From Phycicoccus sp. HDW14 (lineage in GTDB: Bacteria; Actinomycetota; Actinomycetes; Actinomycetales; Dermatophilaceae), in NCBI RefSeq assembly GCF_011383005.1, contig NZ_CP049935.1:3410001-3474000 (forward strand): 64,000 nucleotides of DNA, written 5' to 3'. How positions within the stretch are numbered: the first letter of the stretch is position 1; each line of letters starts with the position of its first letter. Below the pieces are notes generated by a model. The model was not told where the DNA came from. It was given only the letters and a program-made list of their open reading frames with translations, and did not search any database. Below, piece after piece: positions 44,827 to 55,984 of the stretch. Position numbers and translations under genes: made by a program.

Positions 44827-46956
44827 TCAGCCGACGGGGCGGTCGACGCGGTGCTGTTCGGTGGCCGCGTCGGGCCCGACCGCGTGGGGCACGACCTCGT
44901 CGGGCACGACCTCGCCGGGCACGACCTCGGTGCCGGACCCGTCGTCGCCCGGCACGAGGTCGTCGGGCGCCGGCCCGGCGCGGGACCCGGCGACGTCGGC
45001 GTGCCGCGGGGCCGGCCGGCGTAGCACGAGCACGAGCACCGTGACCGCTCCCGCGACGAGCACGACGACGAGCAGGACGAGCCCGAGGCCGAGCGGCAGC
45101 GCCCATCCGGCCCGGTCGCGGGCGTCGTCGGCCAGCGTCGTGGCCCGCGCGACGTTCCCGCCGGCCAGGGCGGTCACGGCGCCGTCGGCCCGCTCGCGCA
45201 CACCGAGCAGCCCGGCGCCGAGGTCGGTGAGCGGGTCGTGGTCGGCGCTCGCGGTGCGCCGCGCGGCCCCGACGTCGGTGATCGCGGACGCGGCGAGGGG
45301 CAGGCTGGTCGCGAGGTCGGCGTAGTCGTCGTCGAGCGAGGCCTCCTCGTAGGACTCGCGGACCGCCTTCGGCACGGGCAGGCCGGTGGCCCGGGCGGCC
45401 TCCTGCACCGCGGCGGCCTTCGCGCCGAGCGGGGCGACGGCGTCGCGCACGCGGGTCGCGCGGTCGAAGTCCCAGACGGTCATCGCGTCGCGCAGGCCCT
45501 CGGGCGGGACCCACGCCCCGTCGGCGCGGTCGAGCGCGGCGTAGGCCTTGCGGGCGGCGGCGCGGGGCACGAGCTTCTTGGCCTGGGCCGGGGTGAGCAC
45601 CCACTCCGAGAACACCTTCGGGGCGTTCGTGACGCGGCCGCGGCTCTCGACGAGGTCGAGCCAGTCGGTCCACGAGGTGCGCCCGCCGCTCGGGGTGACG
45701 AGACCCGCGGGGTCGTAGGCCCGCTCGCCCCGCACACCGGCGCCGACGACGGCCGCGAAGGTCTTGTCGTCGAGCTTCCCGAGGAGCTCGGTCATCACCC
45801 GGTAGGAGGCGGGGTAGGCGTAGGAGTCGACGTCGGCGGTGCGGCTGCCGGCATCGCCCTCCCAGGAGTTGAGGGGCACCGCCCCGTCCGCGGAGCGGGA
45901 GACCTTGGAGTGCGGACGCGGCGTGCCGCCGGTGGCCTCGACCGCCCGCTCGGCGATGGACTGCGCGAGCCCCTCGTAGAGCCAGCGGCCCTCGAAGCTC
46001 TCGCCGGACACCCAGGCGTGCGACAGCTCGTGGAAGATCAGGTCGTCGTCGAGCTGCTCGCCGACGACGATCTCGTCACCCGTCGGGTCGAACCAGCCGT
46101 CGTAGCCGCGCAGCGACGGCGAGGCGTCCTCGCGGATGCGCTGGAGGCCGCCCGGCCACGGGTTGCCGACGAGCCGCTCGAGCTGGGGGAGCCCGGCGGT
46201 GACCTTCCCGGCGACGAACGAGGACCACTTCTCGTCGTCGGGGAAGGACTCGAGGGTCAGCGAGAGGTCGCCGACGTCGACCGTGCGCTCCTTGGCCCGC
46301 TTCGGGTCCCGGAACGACACCGCCGCCCAGAGCCCACCCTCGAAGGTGTTCTCGGTGGCGGTGTACGTGGTGGTGTCGCCGTCCCCCGCGGGCGTGAACC
46401 CGTCGACGGTGCTCGTGAAGGACATCGCCGACGGCGCGACGACCTGCACGGTGTTGTGCCCCTCGTCGCCGGGGCCGTACGCGACGAAGGTGGCGTAGCC
46501 GGGCCCGACGCGCGTGTTGTTGTCCGAGCGGGGCGGGGCGCCGGGGATGTCGAAGGTCAGGACGATGCGGCGCTTCTGGTGGTAGCGCAGGTCGGGGAAG
46601 GTGATCCGCGCCAGCTGGGTGCTCGGGTCGTCGCTCCCCGAGAGCGACACCGGCAGCTCACCGCCCCCGCTGACCGCCGTGACCTTCTCGATGCCGGCCG
46701 GCACGGGGATCGTGTAGGCGTCGAAGTAGTAGGTGTAGACCCCGCCGTCGGCCTGCTTGTCCGGGCTGACGTTCTCGAGGTCGACGGTCATCCGGGTGTG
46801 GACGACCTCGGCCTTCGTGTCGAGGACGTAGCGGCTCGTCGCGCTCGCCGACAGGCCCTCGGCGGCGGCCGCGACCGGGGCGCCGAGCAGCGCGGCGGAG
46901 GCCGCGAGCGCACTGACGAGGGCGACGCCGGCGGCGCGCAGGACCATCCTCGCCAT
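44827..46956 (-). CDS. Membrane-anchored gluzincin-like metallopeptidase
   Basis: 709 residues from the ATG at 46956, which has GGAGGGA upstream. Signal peptide (AAGVALVSALAASAALLGAP, cut near AAA). A beta-rich N-terminal domain leads into FHELSHAWVSGESFEGRWLYEGLAQ: HELSH plus a glutamate 18 residues later is the HExxH...E arrangement of gluzincins, so zinc peptidase activity is likely. A helical domain follows, then one membrane helix near residue 635 (GLGLVLLVVVLVAGAVTVLV) and a cytoplasmic tail with repeated EVVPGEVVPDEVVP. Substrate unknown; the active site faces outward. Confidence 0.85.
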   Translation of the reverse strand: MARMVLRAAGVALVSALAASAALLGAPVAAAAEGLSASATSRYVLDTKAEVVHTRMTVDLENVSPDKQADGGVYTYYFDAYTIPVPAGIEKVTAVSGGGELPVSLSGSDDPSTQLARITFPDLRYHQKRRIVLTFDIPGAPPRSDNNTRVGPGYATFVAYGPGDEGHNTVQVVAPSAMSFTSTVDGFTPAGDGDTTTYTATENTFEGGLWAAVSFRDPKRAKERTVDVGDLSLTLESFPDDEKWSSFVAGKVTAGLPQLERLVGNPWPGGLQRIREDASPSLRGYDGWFDPTGDEIVVGEQLDDDLIFHELSHAWVSGESFEGRWLYEGLAQSIAERAVEATGGTPRPHSKVSRSADGAVPLNSWEGDAGSRTADVDSYAYPASYRVMTELLGKLDDKTFAAVVGAGVRGERAYDPAGLVTPSGGRTSWTDWLDLVESRGRVTNAPKVFSEWVLTPAQAKKLVPRAAARKAYAALDRADGAWVPPEGLRDAMTVWDFDRATRVRDAVAPLGAKAAAVQEAARATGLPVPKAVRESYEEASLDDDYADLATSLPLAASAITDVGAARRTASADHDPLTDLGAGLLGVRERADGAVTALAGGNVARATTLADDARDRAGWALPLGLGLVLLVVVLVAGAVTVLVLVLRRPAPRHADVAGSRAGPAPDDLVPGDDGSGTEVVPGEVVPDEVVPHAVGPDAATEQHRVDRPVG

Positions 46957-47130: not shown

Positions 47131-48045
47131 TCAGCTGGCCTTCTTCTCGGCCTTCTTGCCCGTCGACTTCTTGGCCGTGGTCTTCGTGGCGGCGGCCTTC
47201 TTCGTGGCGGGGGCCTTCTTCGCCGCCGCCTTCTTCGCCGTCTTCTTCGCCGGGGCCGGCGCCTCCCCGCGGGAGGCCTTGGCCTTCTCGACCGAGCGGG
47301 ACAGGGCCGCGAGCAGGTCGACGACCTCGCCGGACTCCTCCTCCTCGGGCGCGGCCACCCGCACCTCGCCGCCCTCGACCTTGGCCCGCACCAGCTCCTT
47401 GACGGCCAGGGCGTAGTCGTCCTCGTACTCGTCGGGCTCGTAGTCGCCGGCCAGCTGGTCGATGAGCATGCGCGCCATGTCCATCTCCTGCCGGCTGGCC
47501 TTCTGGTCCTCGGTGACCGCGGCGAAGTCGGCGGCCCGGATCTCGTCGGGCCAGAGCATCGTCTGCATGACGATGACGCCGTCGCGCACGCGCAGCACGG
47601 CCATCGTCGTCCGGGTGCGGATCGCGACGGTGACGATGGCCATCCGCTTCTCGGTCTCGAGGGCGTCGCGCAGCAGCACGTACGGCTTGGTGGCGGACTT
47701 GTCGGGCTCGAGGTAGTAGCTCTTGTCGAGCCACATGGGGTCGATCTGGTCGGCGGGGACGAACTTCGTCACGCCGATCTCCTTGGACGAGGTGCTCGGC
47801 AGGTCGGCGAAGTCGTCGTCGGTGAGCACGACCATGTCGCCGTCCTCGGTCTCGTAGCCCTTGGCGATGTCGTCGTAGCTCACCTCCTCGCCGTCGATCG
47901 AGCAGGTGCGCTTGTACTTGATGCGCCCGCCGTCCTCGCGGTGCACCTGACGGAACTGCACGTCGTGGTTCTCGGTGGCGGAGTACAGGCGCACGGGCAC
48001 GTTGACCAGCCCGAAGGAGACCGCACCCTTCCAGATCGCTCGCAT
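47131..48045 (-). CDS. ku: Ku protein (bacterial NHEJ)
   Basis: 304 residues. The start MRAIWKGAVSFGLVNVPVRL is diagnostic, followed by the Ku core (VHREDGGRIKYKRTC, GYETEDGDMVVLTDDDF, FADLP). The C-terminal ~45 residues are a Lys/Ala-rich tail (PAKKTAKKAAAKKAPATKK), as in other actinobacterial Ku proteins, where it aids DNA binding. Ku encircles DNA ends and recruits LigD. Same strand as the TOPRIM gene 54 bp upstream; both are divergent from the ligase and polymerase genes. Confidence 0.97.
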   Translation of the reverse strand: MRAIWKGAVSFGLVNVPVRLYSATENHDVQFRQVHREDGGRIKYKRTCSIDGEEVSYDDIAKGYETEDGDMVVLTDDDFADLPSTSSKEIGVTKFVPADQIDPMWLDKSYYLEPDKSATKPYVLLRDALETEKRMAIVTVAIRTRTTMAVLRVRDGVIVMQTMLWPDEIRAADFAAVTEDQKASRQEMDMARMLIDQLAGDYEPDEYEDDYALAVKELVRAKVEGGEVRVAAPEEEESGEVVDLLAALSRSVEKAKASRGEAPAPAKKTAKKAAAKKAPATKKAAATKTTAKKSTGKKAEKKAS

Positions 48046-48099
48046 CGTCCCAGCGTAGGCGGGTCGCGGGCCGCTGGGGAGGGGTCGGGTCGCCCGGCC

Positions 48100-48660
48100 T
48101 CAGGCGCCGATGACGACGACGGCCTCGACGAGCGGACCGAGCGGGTCGGGCAGGGCGTCGGGGTCGAGCCGGTCGGCGAGCCGCGCCGCCAGCCGGACCT
48201 TGCGCCCGGACCCCGACCCGGCGAAGCGGTGCAACTGCTCGGCGACCGGCCGTCCGCGCCAGTGCGGCATCTGGGCGAGGGACTCGAACGCGCCGAGCTC
48301 GGACATCCCCGCGAGGGCGTCGAGGACGGCGTCCGGGCCGAGGGAGCGGATGAGGACGTCCTCGAGGTCGCGGTCGCAGACGAGCACGCCGTGCCAGCCG
48401 AGCTCCTCGACCGTCTCGGCCCGCACCCCGTGCCGGCGCAGCGCCCCGACCGCGAACCGCACCTCCGGGGCGTCGACGAGCGCGAGCACGCCGGGGCCCG
48501 GCCCGCCGAGGGCGTCGAGGTGCGCGGCGAGGTTGGTGACCCCACCCATCGGCACGACCTCGGCGGGCGCACCCCGGCGGGCGAGCAGGGCGCGCACGAG
48601 CACCGCGTCGCTCTCGCCCTCGACGAGCACGACCGGCCCGCCGGTGCCCATGGCCTCCAT
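48100..48660 (-). CDS. Stand-alone TOPRIM domain protein (OLD-nuclease type) in the NHEJ locus
   Basis: 186 residues. PVVLVEGESDAVLVRALLAR is the TOPRIM glutamate motif, VLALVDAPEV a variant second motif, and VLVCDRDLEDVLIRSLGPDA the acidic DxDxxD motif found in the TOPRIM part of OLD-family nucleases and related transferase/hydrolase domains. No ATPase domain accompanies it. It starts 40 bp from the divergent ligase gene and is followed by ku, so it is probably part of the end-joining machinery, perhaps as an end-processing nuclease. That role is inference. Confidence 0.8.
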   Translation of the reverse strand: MEAMGTGGPVVLVEGESDAVLVRALLARRGAPAEVVPMGGVTNLAAHLDALGGPGPGVLALVDAPEVRFAVGALRRHGVRAETVEELGWHGVLVCDRDLEDVLIRSLGPDAVLDALAGMSELGAFESLAQMPHWRGRPVAEQLHRFAGSGSGRKVRLAARLADRLDPDALPDPLGPLVEAVVVIGA

Positions 48661-48700
48661 GTCCGTGACCGTAGCCCGAGCGGGCGGGCAGGATGGGCCC

Positions 48701-49657
48701 ATGCGCCCGATGCTCGCGACCGCCGCGGAGGCCCCGCCGCGCGGCGACGCCTGGGTGCACGAGGTGAAGTGGGACGGGATGCGCGTGCTCGTCGACGTGC
48801 GCGGCGGTTCGGTGACGGTCTCGTCGCGGACCGAGCGCGACGTCACCCCGGCCTTCCCCGAGCTCGACGGCCTCGCCGACACCTACGACGACCTGCTGCT
48901 CGACGGCGAGGTCGTCGCGATGGACGACGGCCGCCCCAGCTTCCACGCCCTCGCCGAGCGGATGCACGTCACGAAGCGGCGCCAGGCCGAGAAGCTCGTG
49001 GCGTCGCGGCCGGTCACCCTCATGGTCTTCGACCTGCTGCGCCTCTTCGGCCAGGACCTCACCCGCCAGCCGTGGAGCGTGCGCCGGAAGCTCCTCGAGG
49101 AGCTCGAGCTCGACGGCCGCTCGTGGCACGTCCCCGAGGTCCACGACGACGGCGAGCTGCTGCTGCGGGTCACCGGCGAGCAGGGGCTCGAGGGCGTGGT
49201 CAGCAAGCGCCGCTCGGCGACCTACCTGCCGGGCCGGCGCTCGGCGGACTGGCGCAAGGTGGCTCACCGGCGCACCTACTCGGTCGTCGTCGGGGGTTGG
49301 CGGCCGGAGGTCGGGTCGGGCGCGTCGTCCGCCGACCGGCTCGGGGCGGTGCTCGTCGGGCTGCCCGACGACGACGGCGGCTGGCGCTACGCGGGCCGGG
49401 TGGGCTCGGGGCTGGCCGGGTCCGCCGGGGCGGCGCTGCTGCGGCGGCTGCGGTCCGCCGAGTGCGACACCTCCCCGTTCTCCGACGAGGTGCCGCGCAT
49501 CGACGCGTCGGGCACGACGTGGGTGCAGCCGCGGCTGGTCGTCGAGGTGCGCACGCTGATGCTCACCGCCGACCACCGGCTGCGCCAGCCGACCTACCTC
49601 GGCGTCCGGCACGACCTGACGCCCGAGGAGCTGCGGGAGGTGGAGGAGGGTGGCTGA
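48701..49657 (+). CDS. ligD: ATP-dependent DNA ligase (separate LigD ligase domain)
   Basis: 318 residues. The adenylation motif is HEVKWDGMRVLVDVR (KxDG-type lysine), then DGEVVAMDDGRPSFHALAER (motif III), EGVVSKRRSATYLPGRRS (motif IV) and WRKVAH (motif V); an OB fold follows with AGRVGSGL and the EVRTLML end. No polymerase or phosphoesterase domain is attached. Seals DNA ends brought together by Ku. The last eight bases overlap the polymerase gene. Confidence 0.95.
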   Translation: MRPMLATAAEAPPRGDAWVHEVKWDGMRVLVDVRGGSVTVSSRTERDVTPAFPELDGLADTYDDLLLDGEVVAMDDGRPSFHALAERMHVTKRRQAEKLVASRPVTLMVFDLLRLFGQDLTRQPWSVRRKLLEELELDGRSWHVPEVHDDGELLLRVTGEQGLEGVVSKRRSATYLPGRRSADWRKVAHRRTYSVVVGGWRPEVGSGASSADRLGAVLVGLPDDDGGWRYAGRVGSGLAGSAGAALLRRLRSAECDTSPFSDEVPRIDASGTTWVQPRLVVEVRTLMLTADHRLRQPTYLGVRHDLTPEELREVEEGG

Positions 49658-50534
49658 GCGGTACGTGCCGTCGGTGACGCGGGTCGAGGTGGCCGGGCGC
49701 CGGTTGAAGCTGACCAGCCTCGAGAAGGTGATGTACCCCGCCACCGAGACGACCAAGGGCGAGGTGCTCGACTACTACGCGCGCATCGCCGAGGTGATGC
49801 TGCCGCACCTCGCCGACCGGCCGGTCACGCGGGTGCGCTGGCCGCACGGCGTCGAGGACCAGATGTTCTTCGAGAAGAACCTGCCGTCCGGGGCGCCGTC
49901 GTGGCTGCCGCGGGTGCCCATCGACGACGTCACCTACCCGCTCGTGGCCGGGGTCGCCGAGATCGCCTACCTCGTCAACCTCAACTCCCTCGAGCTGCAC
50001 GTCCCGCAGTGGACGGTCGACGCGGACGGCGTGCGGCAGAACCCGAACCGGCTGGTGATCGACCTCGACCCGGGCAAGCCGGCGGGGCTGCACGAGTGCG
50101 CCCAGGTCGCCCTGGTCCTGCGGGCTCGGCTCGAGCGGCTGGGGCTCGAGCTGTACCCGGTCACCTCGGGCAGCAAGGGGATGCAGCTGTACGCGGGGCT
50201 CGGCGGCGACCTGTCCTCCGACGAGGTCCGTGAGCTGGCGATGCAGCTGGCCCAGGAGATGACGAAGAAGCACCCGGACCTCGTGCTCTGGAAGATGACC
50301 AAGTCGCTGCGCCCGGGGAAGGTCTTCCTCGACTGGAGCCAGAACGTCGCCGCGAAGACGACCATCAGCCCGTACTCCATGCGCGGGCGCGAGCTGCCCC
50401 ACGTCGCGGCGCCGCGCACCTGGGACGAGGTGGAACGCGGTGCGCAGGAGCCGGACTCGCTGCAGCAGCTGATGTTCGACGAGGTGCTCGAGCGCGTCGA
50501 GCGCGACGGCGACCTCCTCGCCGACCTCCCCTGA
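49650..50534 (+). CDS. LigD-type DNA polymerase/primase (separate NHEJ polymerase)
   Basis: 294 residues; GTG overlaps the ligase stop by eight bases. The AEP polymerase motifs are LTSLEKVMYPATETTKGEVL, MFFEKNLPSGAPSWLPR, NRLVIDLDPG (catalytic DxD) and PVTSGSKGMQLYAGL, with WSQNVAAKTTISPYSMR near the end. Adds ribo- or deoxynucleotides to break ends before ligation. The ligase and polymerase being separate genes, with no phosphoesterase gene seen, is a common actinobacterial alternative to three-domain LigD. Confidence 0.95.
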   Translation: MAERYVPSVTRVEVAGRRLKLTSLEKVMYPATETTKGEVLDYYARIAEVMLPHLADRPVTRVRWPHGVEDQMFFEKNLPSGAPSWLPRVPIDDVTYPLVAGVAEIAYLVNLNSLELHVPQWTVDADGVRQNPNRLVIDLDPGKPAGLHECAQVALVLRARLERLGLELYPVTSGSKGMQLYAGLGGDLSSDEVRELAMQLAQEMTKKHPDLVLWKMTKSLRPGKVFLDWSQNVAAKTTISPYSMRGRELPHVAAPRTWDEVERGAQEPDSLQQLMFDEVLERVERDGDLLADLP

Positions 50535-55210: not shown

Positions 55211-55984
55211 GTGGCGAGCAGGCGGCAGGCGTGGGAGGAGGGGCTGCCGGCCCGGCGGCTCGAGCGGGTCCAGCATATCGAGCTGCCCGAGCCCGGCACC
55301 TGGCCGCGCACCGTCCCGGCCGTCGAGCAGGTCCTCACCCACGGCCTCGACCTCGCCCGCTGCACGGTGCTCGTCGGCGAGAACGGCTCGGGCAAGTCGA
55401 CCCTCGTCGAGGCCCTGGCCATGGCCGCGGGGATGAACGCCGAGGGCGGGTCCACCGGTGCCCAGCACCGCACGCACGCCAGCGAGTCACCGCTGCACGA
55501 GTGGGTCCGGGTGGTCCGCGACCCCGGGGCGCCGCGCTGGGGCTACTTCGTGCGCGCCGAGACGATGCACGGCCTCTTCACCTACCTCGACACCTCCCGG
55601 TCGGAGTCGCCGTGGAGCCGCGACCCGCTCTTCCACACGCTGTCGCACGGAGAGTCGTTCGTCGCGCTCCTCGGTACGAAGCGGTTCCGGGGTGAGGGGC
55701 TGTTCGTGCTCGACGAGCCCGAGGCCGGGTTGTCGTTCTCCGCGCAGCTGCACCTCGTCGCCGAGCTCACCGAGATGGCCCGGCGGCCGCGTACCCAGGT
55801 CGTCATCGCCACCCACTCACCGGTGCTGGCGGCCATCCCCGGGGCGAGGCTCCTCGAGCTCGGCGAGCACGGCGTCCGGCGCAGCACGTGGGAGGACCTC
55901 GACGTCGTCGCCCACCACCGCGGCTTCCTCGAGCACCCCCGCCGCTACCTGCGGCACGTCGTCGACGACCTCGACGACCTCTGA
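55211..55984 (+). CDS. ABC-type/SMC-like ATPase (COG3910 type)
   Basis: 257 residues; GTG start 35 bp behind the surface protein gene. Walker A VLVGENGSGKSTLVEALAMA (~55-74), signature-like TLSHGESFVALL and Walker B GLFVLDEPEAGLS followed by QVVIATHSPVLAAI. It has no membrane part and no transporter partner. Proteins of this kind are predicted ATPases of unknown function; they are frequent as single genes in actinobacteria. Confidence 0.88.
   Translation: MASRRQAWEEGLPARRLERVQHIELPEPGTWPRTVPAVEQVLTHGLDLARCTVLVGENGSGKSTLVEALAMAAGMNAEGGSTGAQHRTHASESPLHEWVRVVRDPGAPRWGYFVRAETMHGLFTYLDTSRSESPWSRDPLFHTLSHGESFVALLGTKRFRGEGLFVLDEPEAGLSFSAQLHLVAELTEMARRPRTQVVIATHSPVLAAIPGARLLELGEHGVRRSTWEDLDVVAHHRGFLEHPRRYLRHVVDDLDDL

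Follow-up and report, generated by a model that had tools for sequence, protein, structure and literature searches.

A stand-alone OLD-type TOPRIM gene between ku and the ligase-polymerase genes of a Phycicoccus-like genus, probably an orphan nuclease gene that landed there once

The OLD nucleases of Gabija, retrons and PARIS have been studied together with their ATPase half. What the nuclease half can do by itself is described for BpOLD in the available part of PMC6755086, according to which the isolated C-terminal region, lacking the ATPase, introduces nicks into plasmids and digests duplex DNA in the 5′ to 3′ direction. The same excerpt assigns E400, D455 and D457 to metal A and E404, T506 and E508 to metal B, and it adds K562 to the site; D457 contacts the metal-bound water, and single substitutions, D457A included, had no discernible effect. 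As for bacterial end joining, systems in which the POL or PE domains are absent or reside in separate proteins are called 'nonconventional NHEJ' in the accessible portion of PMC7719229. Among the papers listed by our literature search, none dealt with a TOPRIM protein in bacterial NHEJ.

The locus described here lies in a stretch of 64,000 nucleotides from Phycicoccus sp. HDW14 (referred to as the window) and combines separate NHEJ genes with a small TOPRIM gene. On the reverse strand, ku (47131-48045) encodes a bacterial NHEJ Ku of 304 aa (PF02735, E 8.8e-53; TIGR02772, E 1.3e-97). Upstream of it on the same strand is a stand-alone TOPRIM nuclease-like gene (48100-48660; 186 aa), whose product is of the type of the Class 2 OLD/GajA catalytic C-terminal region, with a spacing of 54 bp from the TOPRIM stop to the ku ATG. 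Divergent from these two genes, the forward strand carries an ATP-dependent NHEJ DNA ligase of the LigD LIG type (48701-49657; TIGR02779, E 7.1e-74; PF01068 and PF04679) and a LigD-type primase-polymerase (49650-50534; PF21686, E 3e-80; TIGR02778, E 4.4e-76), each as a separate open reading frame, the two overlapping by 8 bp. The TOPRIM gene starts with the ATG at 48660, the codon at 48669 being GTC, which is no start, and 40 bp lie between this ATG and that of the ligase at 48701. An earlier reading of the letters alone (the sequence-only reading) had described TOPRIM and ku as divergent from the ligase and polymerase with 40 bp between the starts, and the ligase and polymerase as separate genes, and it was right in coordinates, strands and gene identities; the interval 48100-50534 that it gave contains the TOPRIM, ligase and polymerase genes and leaves ku outside. 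Its remark that no LigD phosphoesterase domain is seen extends to the whole genome, as PF13298 had no match anywhere in the single contig of 4.07 Mb that was searched (estimated completeness 92.7%), which contains one Ku match. Behind ku, all 12 genus genomes have a large gene (window positions 44827-46947) that is perhaps a metallopeptidase gene, the match to PF01433 reaching no better than E 0.066; two of the genomes (L160, L161) carry two copies of it in tandem.

The assignment of the TOPRIM protein to the OLD type is weak for the single protein and firm when its family is considered. PF20469 (OLD-like_TOPRIM) scored 17.7 bits against the single protein, below the cut-off of 23.2, whereas it was matched by 58 of 64 aligned relatives at E<=0.01. 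The PADLOC GajA profile gave E 9.2e-7 with the protein itself, and the GajA profile was matched by all 64 family members at E<=0.1. A profile built from the 64 relatives found 6njv (E 1.8e-8) and 6nk8 (E 7.6e-5) in the PDB over its full length, these entries being the crystallised C-terminal regions of the Class 2 OLD proteins XccOLD (6NJV) and BpOLD (6NK8). When the AlphaFold2 model of the protein (pLDDT 92.9, pTM 0.87) was compared with the PDB by Foldseek, the best matches were OLD C-terminal regions (E 2.4e-7), and in VIA the model aligned with 6nk8, the C-terminal region of BpOLD, over 170 residues with Z 15.9, an rmsd of 3.2 A and about 20% identity. Next after the OLD C-terminal regions in VIA came GajA entries with Z 9 to 11, and the 306-residue PARIS chain 8ux9_A, which we take to be AriB, reached Z 8.5. 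Neither a Pfam search nor the AlphaFold2 model revealed an ATPase domain in the 186-aa open reading frame, and PF13298 had no match in the protein at E<=1. The DRDLED motif on which the sequence-only reading had based a stand-alone OLD-type TOPRIM protein is present, and the OLD type was made firm by the family profiles and the fold; at the level of sequence and predicted structure, the analysis confirms the protein as an OLD/GajA catalytic core without the ATPase half. The accompanying label of a nuclease-like gene is plausible, and the gene is embedded in the NHEJ locus as that reading had described. Among the best 80 of at least 443 GTDB loci, the nearest named relative is from Phycicoccus sonneratiae (L064), with 90% identity, which is why the genus is referred to as Phycicoccus-like.

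In the alignment with BpOLD, residues E400, D455, D457, E404, T506, E508 and K562 correspond to E14, D63, P65, D18, D98, E100 and K154 of the TOPRIM protein. Four of the seven published positions are identical (E14, D63, E100 and K154), two carry acidic replacements (D18 and D98), and D457 is lost (P65); the Asp at the position of T506 is not a conservative change. In a pooled set of 93 family sequences, which represent about 88 different genes, D63, D98 and E100 are conserved in all 93, E14 and D18 in 92 each and K154 in 90, whereas position 65, that of the second DxD Asp, is Asp in 5 of the 93, and E66 next to this gap is Glu in 86. The two-metal site thus appears largely kept, with Asp replacing Glu and Thr at two positions and the second DxD Asp gone. 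Because P65 takes the place of that Asp (D457), the putative nuclease activity may be weak or altered. Since the C-terminal region of BpOLD works without its ATPase, an ATPase-free version could work as well, and we infer that this one does.

Within the Phycicoccus-like genus, all 12 genomes have Ku and ten of them have TOPRIM; in every one of these ten the TOPRIM gene is located between ku and the ligase gene in the orientation of ku. Two genus genomes have a Band-7/SPFH gene between TOPRIM and ku (L155; L159, with L064 of the same layout). As for the two genomes lacking TOPRIM, the gap between ku and the ligase gene is 211 bp in one (L156) and is occupied in the other by an MMPL transporter and two-component genes (L162, 7199-11359). 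The Band-7/SPFH genes in two genomes and the MMPL and two-component genes in one indicate that the site between ku and the ligase accepts other genes too. The TOPRIMs of the ten genus carriers group in a single clade (support 0.995), the sisters of which are four copies from the same bacterial family that are not linked to ku. In a tree of Ku, ligase and polymerase, one TOPRIM-less genome is the earliest branch of the genus (support 0.77), the second one falling among the carriers with poor support; the simplest reading of this would be one arrival of TOPRIM near the base of the genus and one loss. The TOPRIM gene is under purifying selection, with a median dN/dS of 0.42 over 45 pairs, and the constraint is tighter on its neighbours, for which 66 pairs each gave 0.19 (ku), 0.24 (ligase) and 0.20 (polymerase); TOPRIM also evolves faster, with a dN of 0.239 versus 0.062-0.112 for Ku, ligase and polymerase.

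The TOPRIM gene is preceded by a TAnnnT (-10-like) element at 48668-48673 on the reverse strand, 13 bp before its ATG, and a further element of this kind is located at 48052-48057 on the same strand, 12 bp before the ku ATG. All ten genus carriers have TAnnnT upstream of a candidate TOPRIM ATG at a distance of 12 or 13 bp, a count that is somewhat favoured because the start was picked in each genome from up to four candidates. In the window, TAnnnT at that spacing precedes 8 of 3207 ATG/GTG sites and 4 of the 56 genes called by a crude gene caller, TOPRIM and ku included. A distance of 12-13 bp from TAnnnT to ATG is typical of leaderless actinobacterial transcripts, and the motif suggests that the TOPRIM transcript may be leaderless. 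The element of ku itself is found in 2 of 12 genus genomes, that of the window and one close relative, and there is none at this place in the other ten, from which it follows that co-transcription of TOPRIM and ku is possible and not required.

The linkage to ku, for which the sequence-only reading had suggested a genome survey, was seen in these 10 of 12 genus genomes and was not found in the other samples. In the family sample, where carriers were defined by a search with the single protein, TOPRIM was detected in 22 of 59 genomes and Ku in 54; counting G028, which has a 78-residue partial hit with a stop, as a non-carrier leaves 21 of 59. Of the 18 family carriers outside the genus, one lacks Ku, and in the remaining 17 TOPRIM and ku are on different contigs or at least hundreds of kb apart; in none of the 18, many of which are drafts, was ku within 20 kb of TOPRIM on one contig. 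The class sample contains TOPRIM in 50 of 296 genomes and Ku in 223, with weak or partial hits (such as G141, G180 and G138) retained among the 50 carriers and genomes that have TOPRIM without Ku (G138, G164 and G340) kept in the counts. Here too ku was within 20 kb of TOPRIM on one contig in none of the 49 other carriers (46 with Ku, all Ku places compared, many genomes being drafts), the nearest Ku on the same contig being about 21 kb away (G123, a genome with eight Ku matches, some of them fragments). As the profile searches scored at most 11 (class) or 8 (phylum) first-look candidates per genome, carriers in the class and phylum may have been missed. In the phylum, one of 30 loci, taken from the best rows of 38 matching genomes, has Ku within about 1.5 kb, namely that of the window, and the other 29 have none. 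Likewise, one of the best 80 of at least 443 confirmed GTDB loci, some of which end early at contig ends, has Ku in its flank, and this is the Phycicoccus one; conversely, tblastn found no TOPRIM in 20 other ku loci. In draft genomes separate contigs do not wholly exclude adjacency, and in G050 (L043) and G267 the contig ends close to TOPRIM. The TOPRIM family is common away from ku in the family, class, phylum and GTDB sets, an outcome that the sequence-only reading had itself named as refuting, and a general link between TOPRIM and ku is rejected.

With genes called by a crude script and the TOPRIM gene found in 78 of 109 loci, recurrent neighbours outside the genus occur among close relatives only (three Promicromonospora loci, the pair L031/L032 and some Streptomyces) or belong to large generic families, such as ABC transporters, that have no fixed place. 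Ku is more frequent in TOPRIM carriers in the class sample (47 of 50, versus 176 of 246 non-carriers; Fisher p 0.0005, uncorrected for ancestry or genome size), which speaks in favour of a wider connection with Ku; among the 68 family and genus genomes, Ku is present in 27 of 28 carriers and 36 of 40 non-carriers. Among the 80 GTDB loci, ligase- and polymerase-like stretches are located about 4-5 kb from a TOPRIM relative in Streptomyces spiroverticillatus (L127, 12246-13871), and a LigD-polymerase-like stretch about 2.3 kb from another in Nonomuraea deserti (L105, 474-1226), neither flank containing ku; these could be due to chance and count mildly against an orphan gene. A second TOPRIM-like place in the window's genome (G000:C1:2360680, E 6e-4) contains an open reading frame that is transposase-like judging from its translation and was treated as a chance match. 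A phage origin was rejected, phage records giving no TOPRIM match at E<=0.01 and no relative being confirmed in viral contigs (33 matches to one peptide pattern); plasmids gave 25 records, 21 of them from Streptomyces, annotated as 'TOPRIM nucleotidyl transferase/hydrolase domain-containing protein' or 'ATP-dependent endonuclease'.

The TOPRIM protein could be a dedicated end-processing nuclease of NHEJ in this genus, which, expressed with Ku, would trim or open ends before the polymerase and ligase act, offsetting the missing phosphoesterase. Such a role would agree with the same place and orientation by ku in 10 of 10 genus carriers (with one gene between in two), with the closeness of ku, 54 bp behind TOPRIM in the window's genome, and with the absence of a PF13298 match from 11 of 12 genus genomes. 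However, the linkage to ku is seen in one genus and does not recur in independent lineages, TOPRIM is missing from 2 of the 12 genus genomes while the other genes of the locus are retained, and its dN exceeds that of its three neighbours. The sequence-only reading had further proposed that a stand-alone TOPRIM protein takes the place of the phosphoesterase, and this is unsupported: PF13298 was found in 18 of the 68 family and genus genomes, about equally often in TOPRIM carriers (8/28) and non-carriers (10/40; Fisher p 0.79), and both TOPRIM and PF13298 are missing from 27 of the 63 genomes with Ku. The one genus genome that possesses the phosphoesterase domain (G065, E 3.6e-40) has kept TOPRIM as well. 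With no anticorrelation in the 68 genomes, mutual replacement was rejected. A further difficulty is that BpOLD degrades 5′ to 3′, as far as the available text on it goes, whereas the LigD phosphoesterase, by its Pfam name, acts on 3′ ends. We therefore hold a dedicated NHEJ role to be rather unlikely, and the specific proposal that an ATPase-free OLD-type nuclease was recruited in the genus as a Ku-linked, Artemis-like end processor replacing the LigD phosphoesterase to be unlikely.

Two further explanations leave NHEJ aside. The protein could be the nuclease in a split OLD/PARIS-like pair serving in defence, with its ATPase provided in trans, for example by the AAA_21 gene at 55211-55984. An ATPase is a normal part of OLD nucleases, and in PARIS it is separate from the nuclease, according to the accessible part of PMC10568477; the AAA_21 gene is about 6.6 kb from TOPRIM and also has a -10-like element (TAnnnT, 12-13 bp before its start). 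Its distribution is a problem for this explanation: at E<=1e-30 the AAA_21 gene was detected in 8 of 28 genomes with TOPRIM and 12 of 40 without it (p 1.0), and it is located 5-9 kb from ku also where TOPRIM is missing there. Being equally common with and without TOPRIM, it seems not to be the partner of TOPRIM and was dismissed as such. No OLD-type ATPase recurs beside the TOPRIM relatives, and the ABC-transporter-like ATPases seen in 14 of 78 loci have no fixed place. We find a split pair very improbable. Irrespective of this, an AAA_21-type gene 5-9 kb from ku is a feature of at least ten family genomes, whether TOPRIM is there or not (G000, G011, G012, G022, G042, G043, G051, G062, G063 and G064). 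Because the DxD motif is incomplete, the protein could also be a degenerate or repurposed TOPRIM that serves in DNA binding, nucleotidyl transfer or RNA cleavage and is no DNA nuclease. The second DxD Asp is missing in 88 of the 93 pooled sequences, and the TOPRIM nuclease AriB can target tRNA, as stated in the available excerpt of PMC12409363; yet the lysine and the rest of the metal site hardly vary, E66 is Glu in most sequences, and single substitutions such as D457A had no discernible effect in BpOLD (PMC6755086, in the part cited above). A repurposed TOPRIM seems distinctly improbable to us.

We consider it probable that this is an orphan gene for a two-metal DNA nickase/exonuclease, which arrived a single time in the divergent region between ku and the ligase gene and has no dedicated NHEJ role. 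Its product would be a small stand-alone metal-dependent DNA nuclease made up of the Toprim and helical core of Class 2 OLD (GajA) proteins, which, by analogy with the C-terminal region of BpOLD, may introduce nicks into duplex DNA and digest ends in the 5′ to 3′ direction with Mg or Mn, putatively through E14, D18, D63, D98, E100 and K154. The family would consist of orphan genes scattered through Actinomycetota, for which no fixed partner was found, and a single copy would have entered the intergenic region between ku and ligase-polymerase near the base of the Phycicoccus-like genus. One clade, one site and the same orientation were observed and are the basis for a single entry; its timing we infer. 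A leaderless-type promoter motif of its own precedes the gene, which has been retained under purifying selection. That 10 of 12 species have kept it at one site, in the orientation of ku, is also what a functional link would lead one to expect. The locus is shared with ku and a common function may exist; since the relatives elsewhere were not found near NHEJ genes, an end-joining role is no more than a possibility. A widespread stand-alone OLD catalytic core for which no partner gene was found would constitute a simple nuclease family. If the genus copy does process ends, a bacterial NHEJ system without the usual phosphoesterase would possess a nuclease; otherwise the locus advises caution, as one ancestral insertion can mimic a functional cluster.

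Compared with the known systems, the protein is most like the C-terminal region of Class 2 OLD/GajA proteins (BpOLD, 6NK8; XccOLD, 6NJV), with which it shares the Toprim and helical domains over its whole length, and the metal A, metal B and catalytic lysine positions appear mostly kept. It differs from them in having no N-terminal ABC ATPase in the same polypeptide, in the missing second DxD Asp, in the change of T506 to Asp and in an identity of about 20%. Gabija has a GajB-type helicase, whereas no such gene is next door here, the gene downstream of TOPRIM being ku. The resemblance to AriB of PARIS is that the TOPRIM is encoded apart from any ATPase (PMC10568477, in the text available), yet no AriA-type ATPase gene stands beside it and its neighbours are ku and the ligase gene. 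The LigD phosphoesterase (PF13298) is alike only in the supposed job of end processing in an NHEJ locus; its domain is absent from the TOPRIM protein, and no mutual replacement of the two is seen in the 68 genomes. Proteins encoded by Streptomyces plasmids belong to the same family by tblastn; among the 25 records, the 20 that were listed have 35-44% identity. Under the classification of OLD proteins, as we read the accessible part of PMC10568477, the TOPRIM protein is not a Class 2 OLD because it lacks the ATPase and a helicase gene; by analogy, it probably works like the catalytic core of one.
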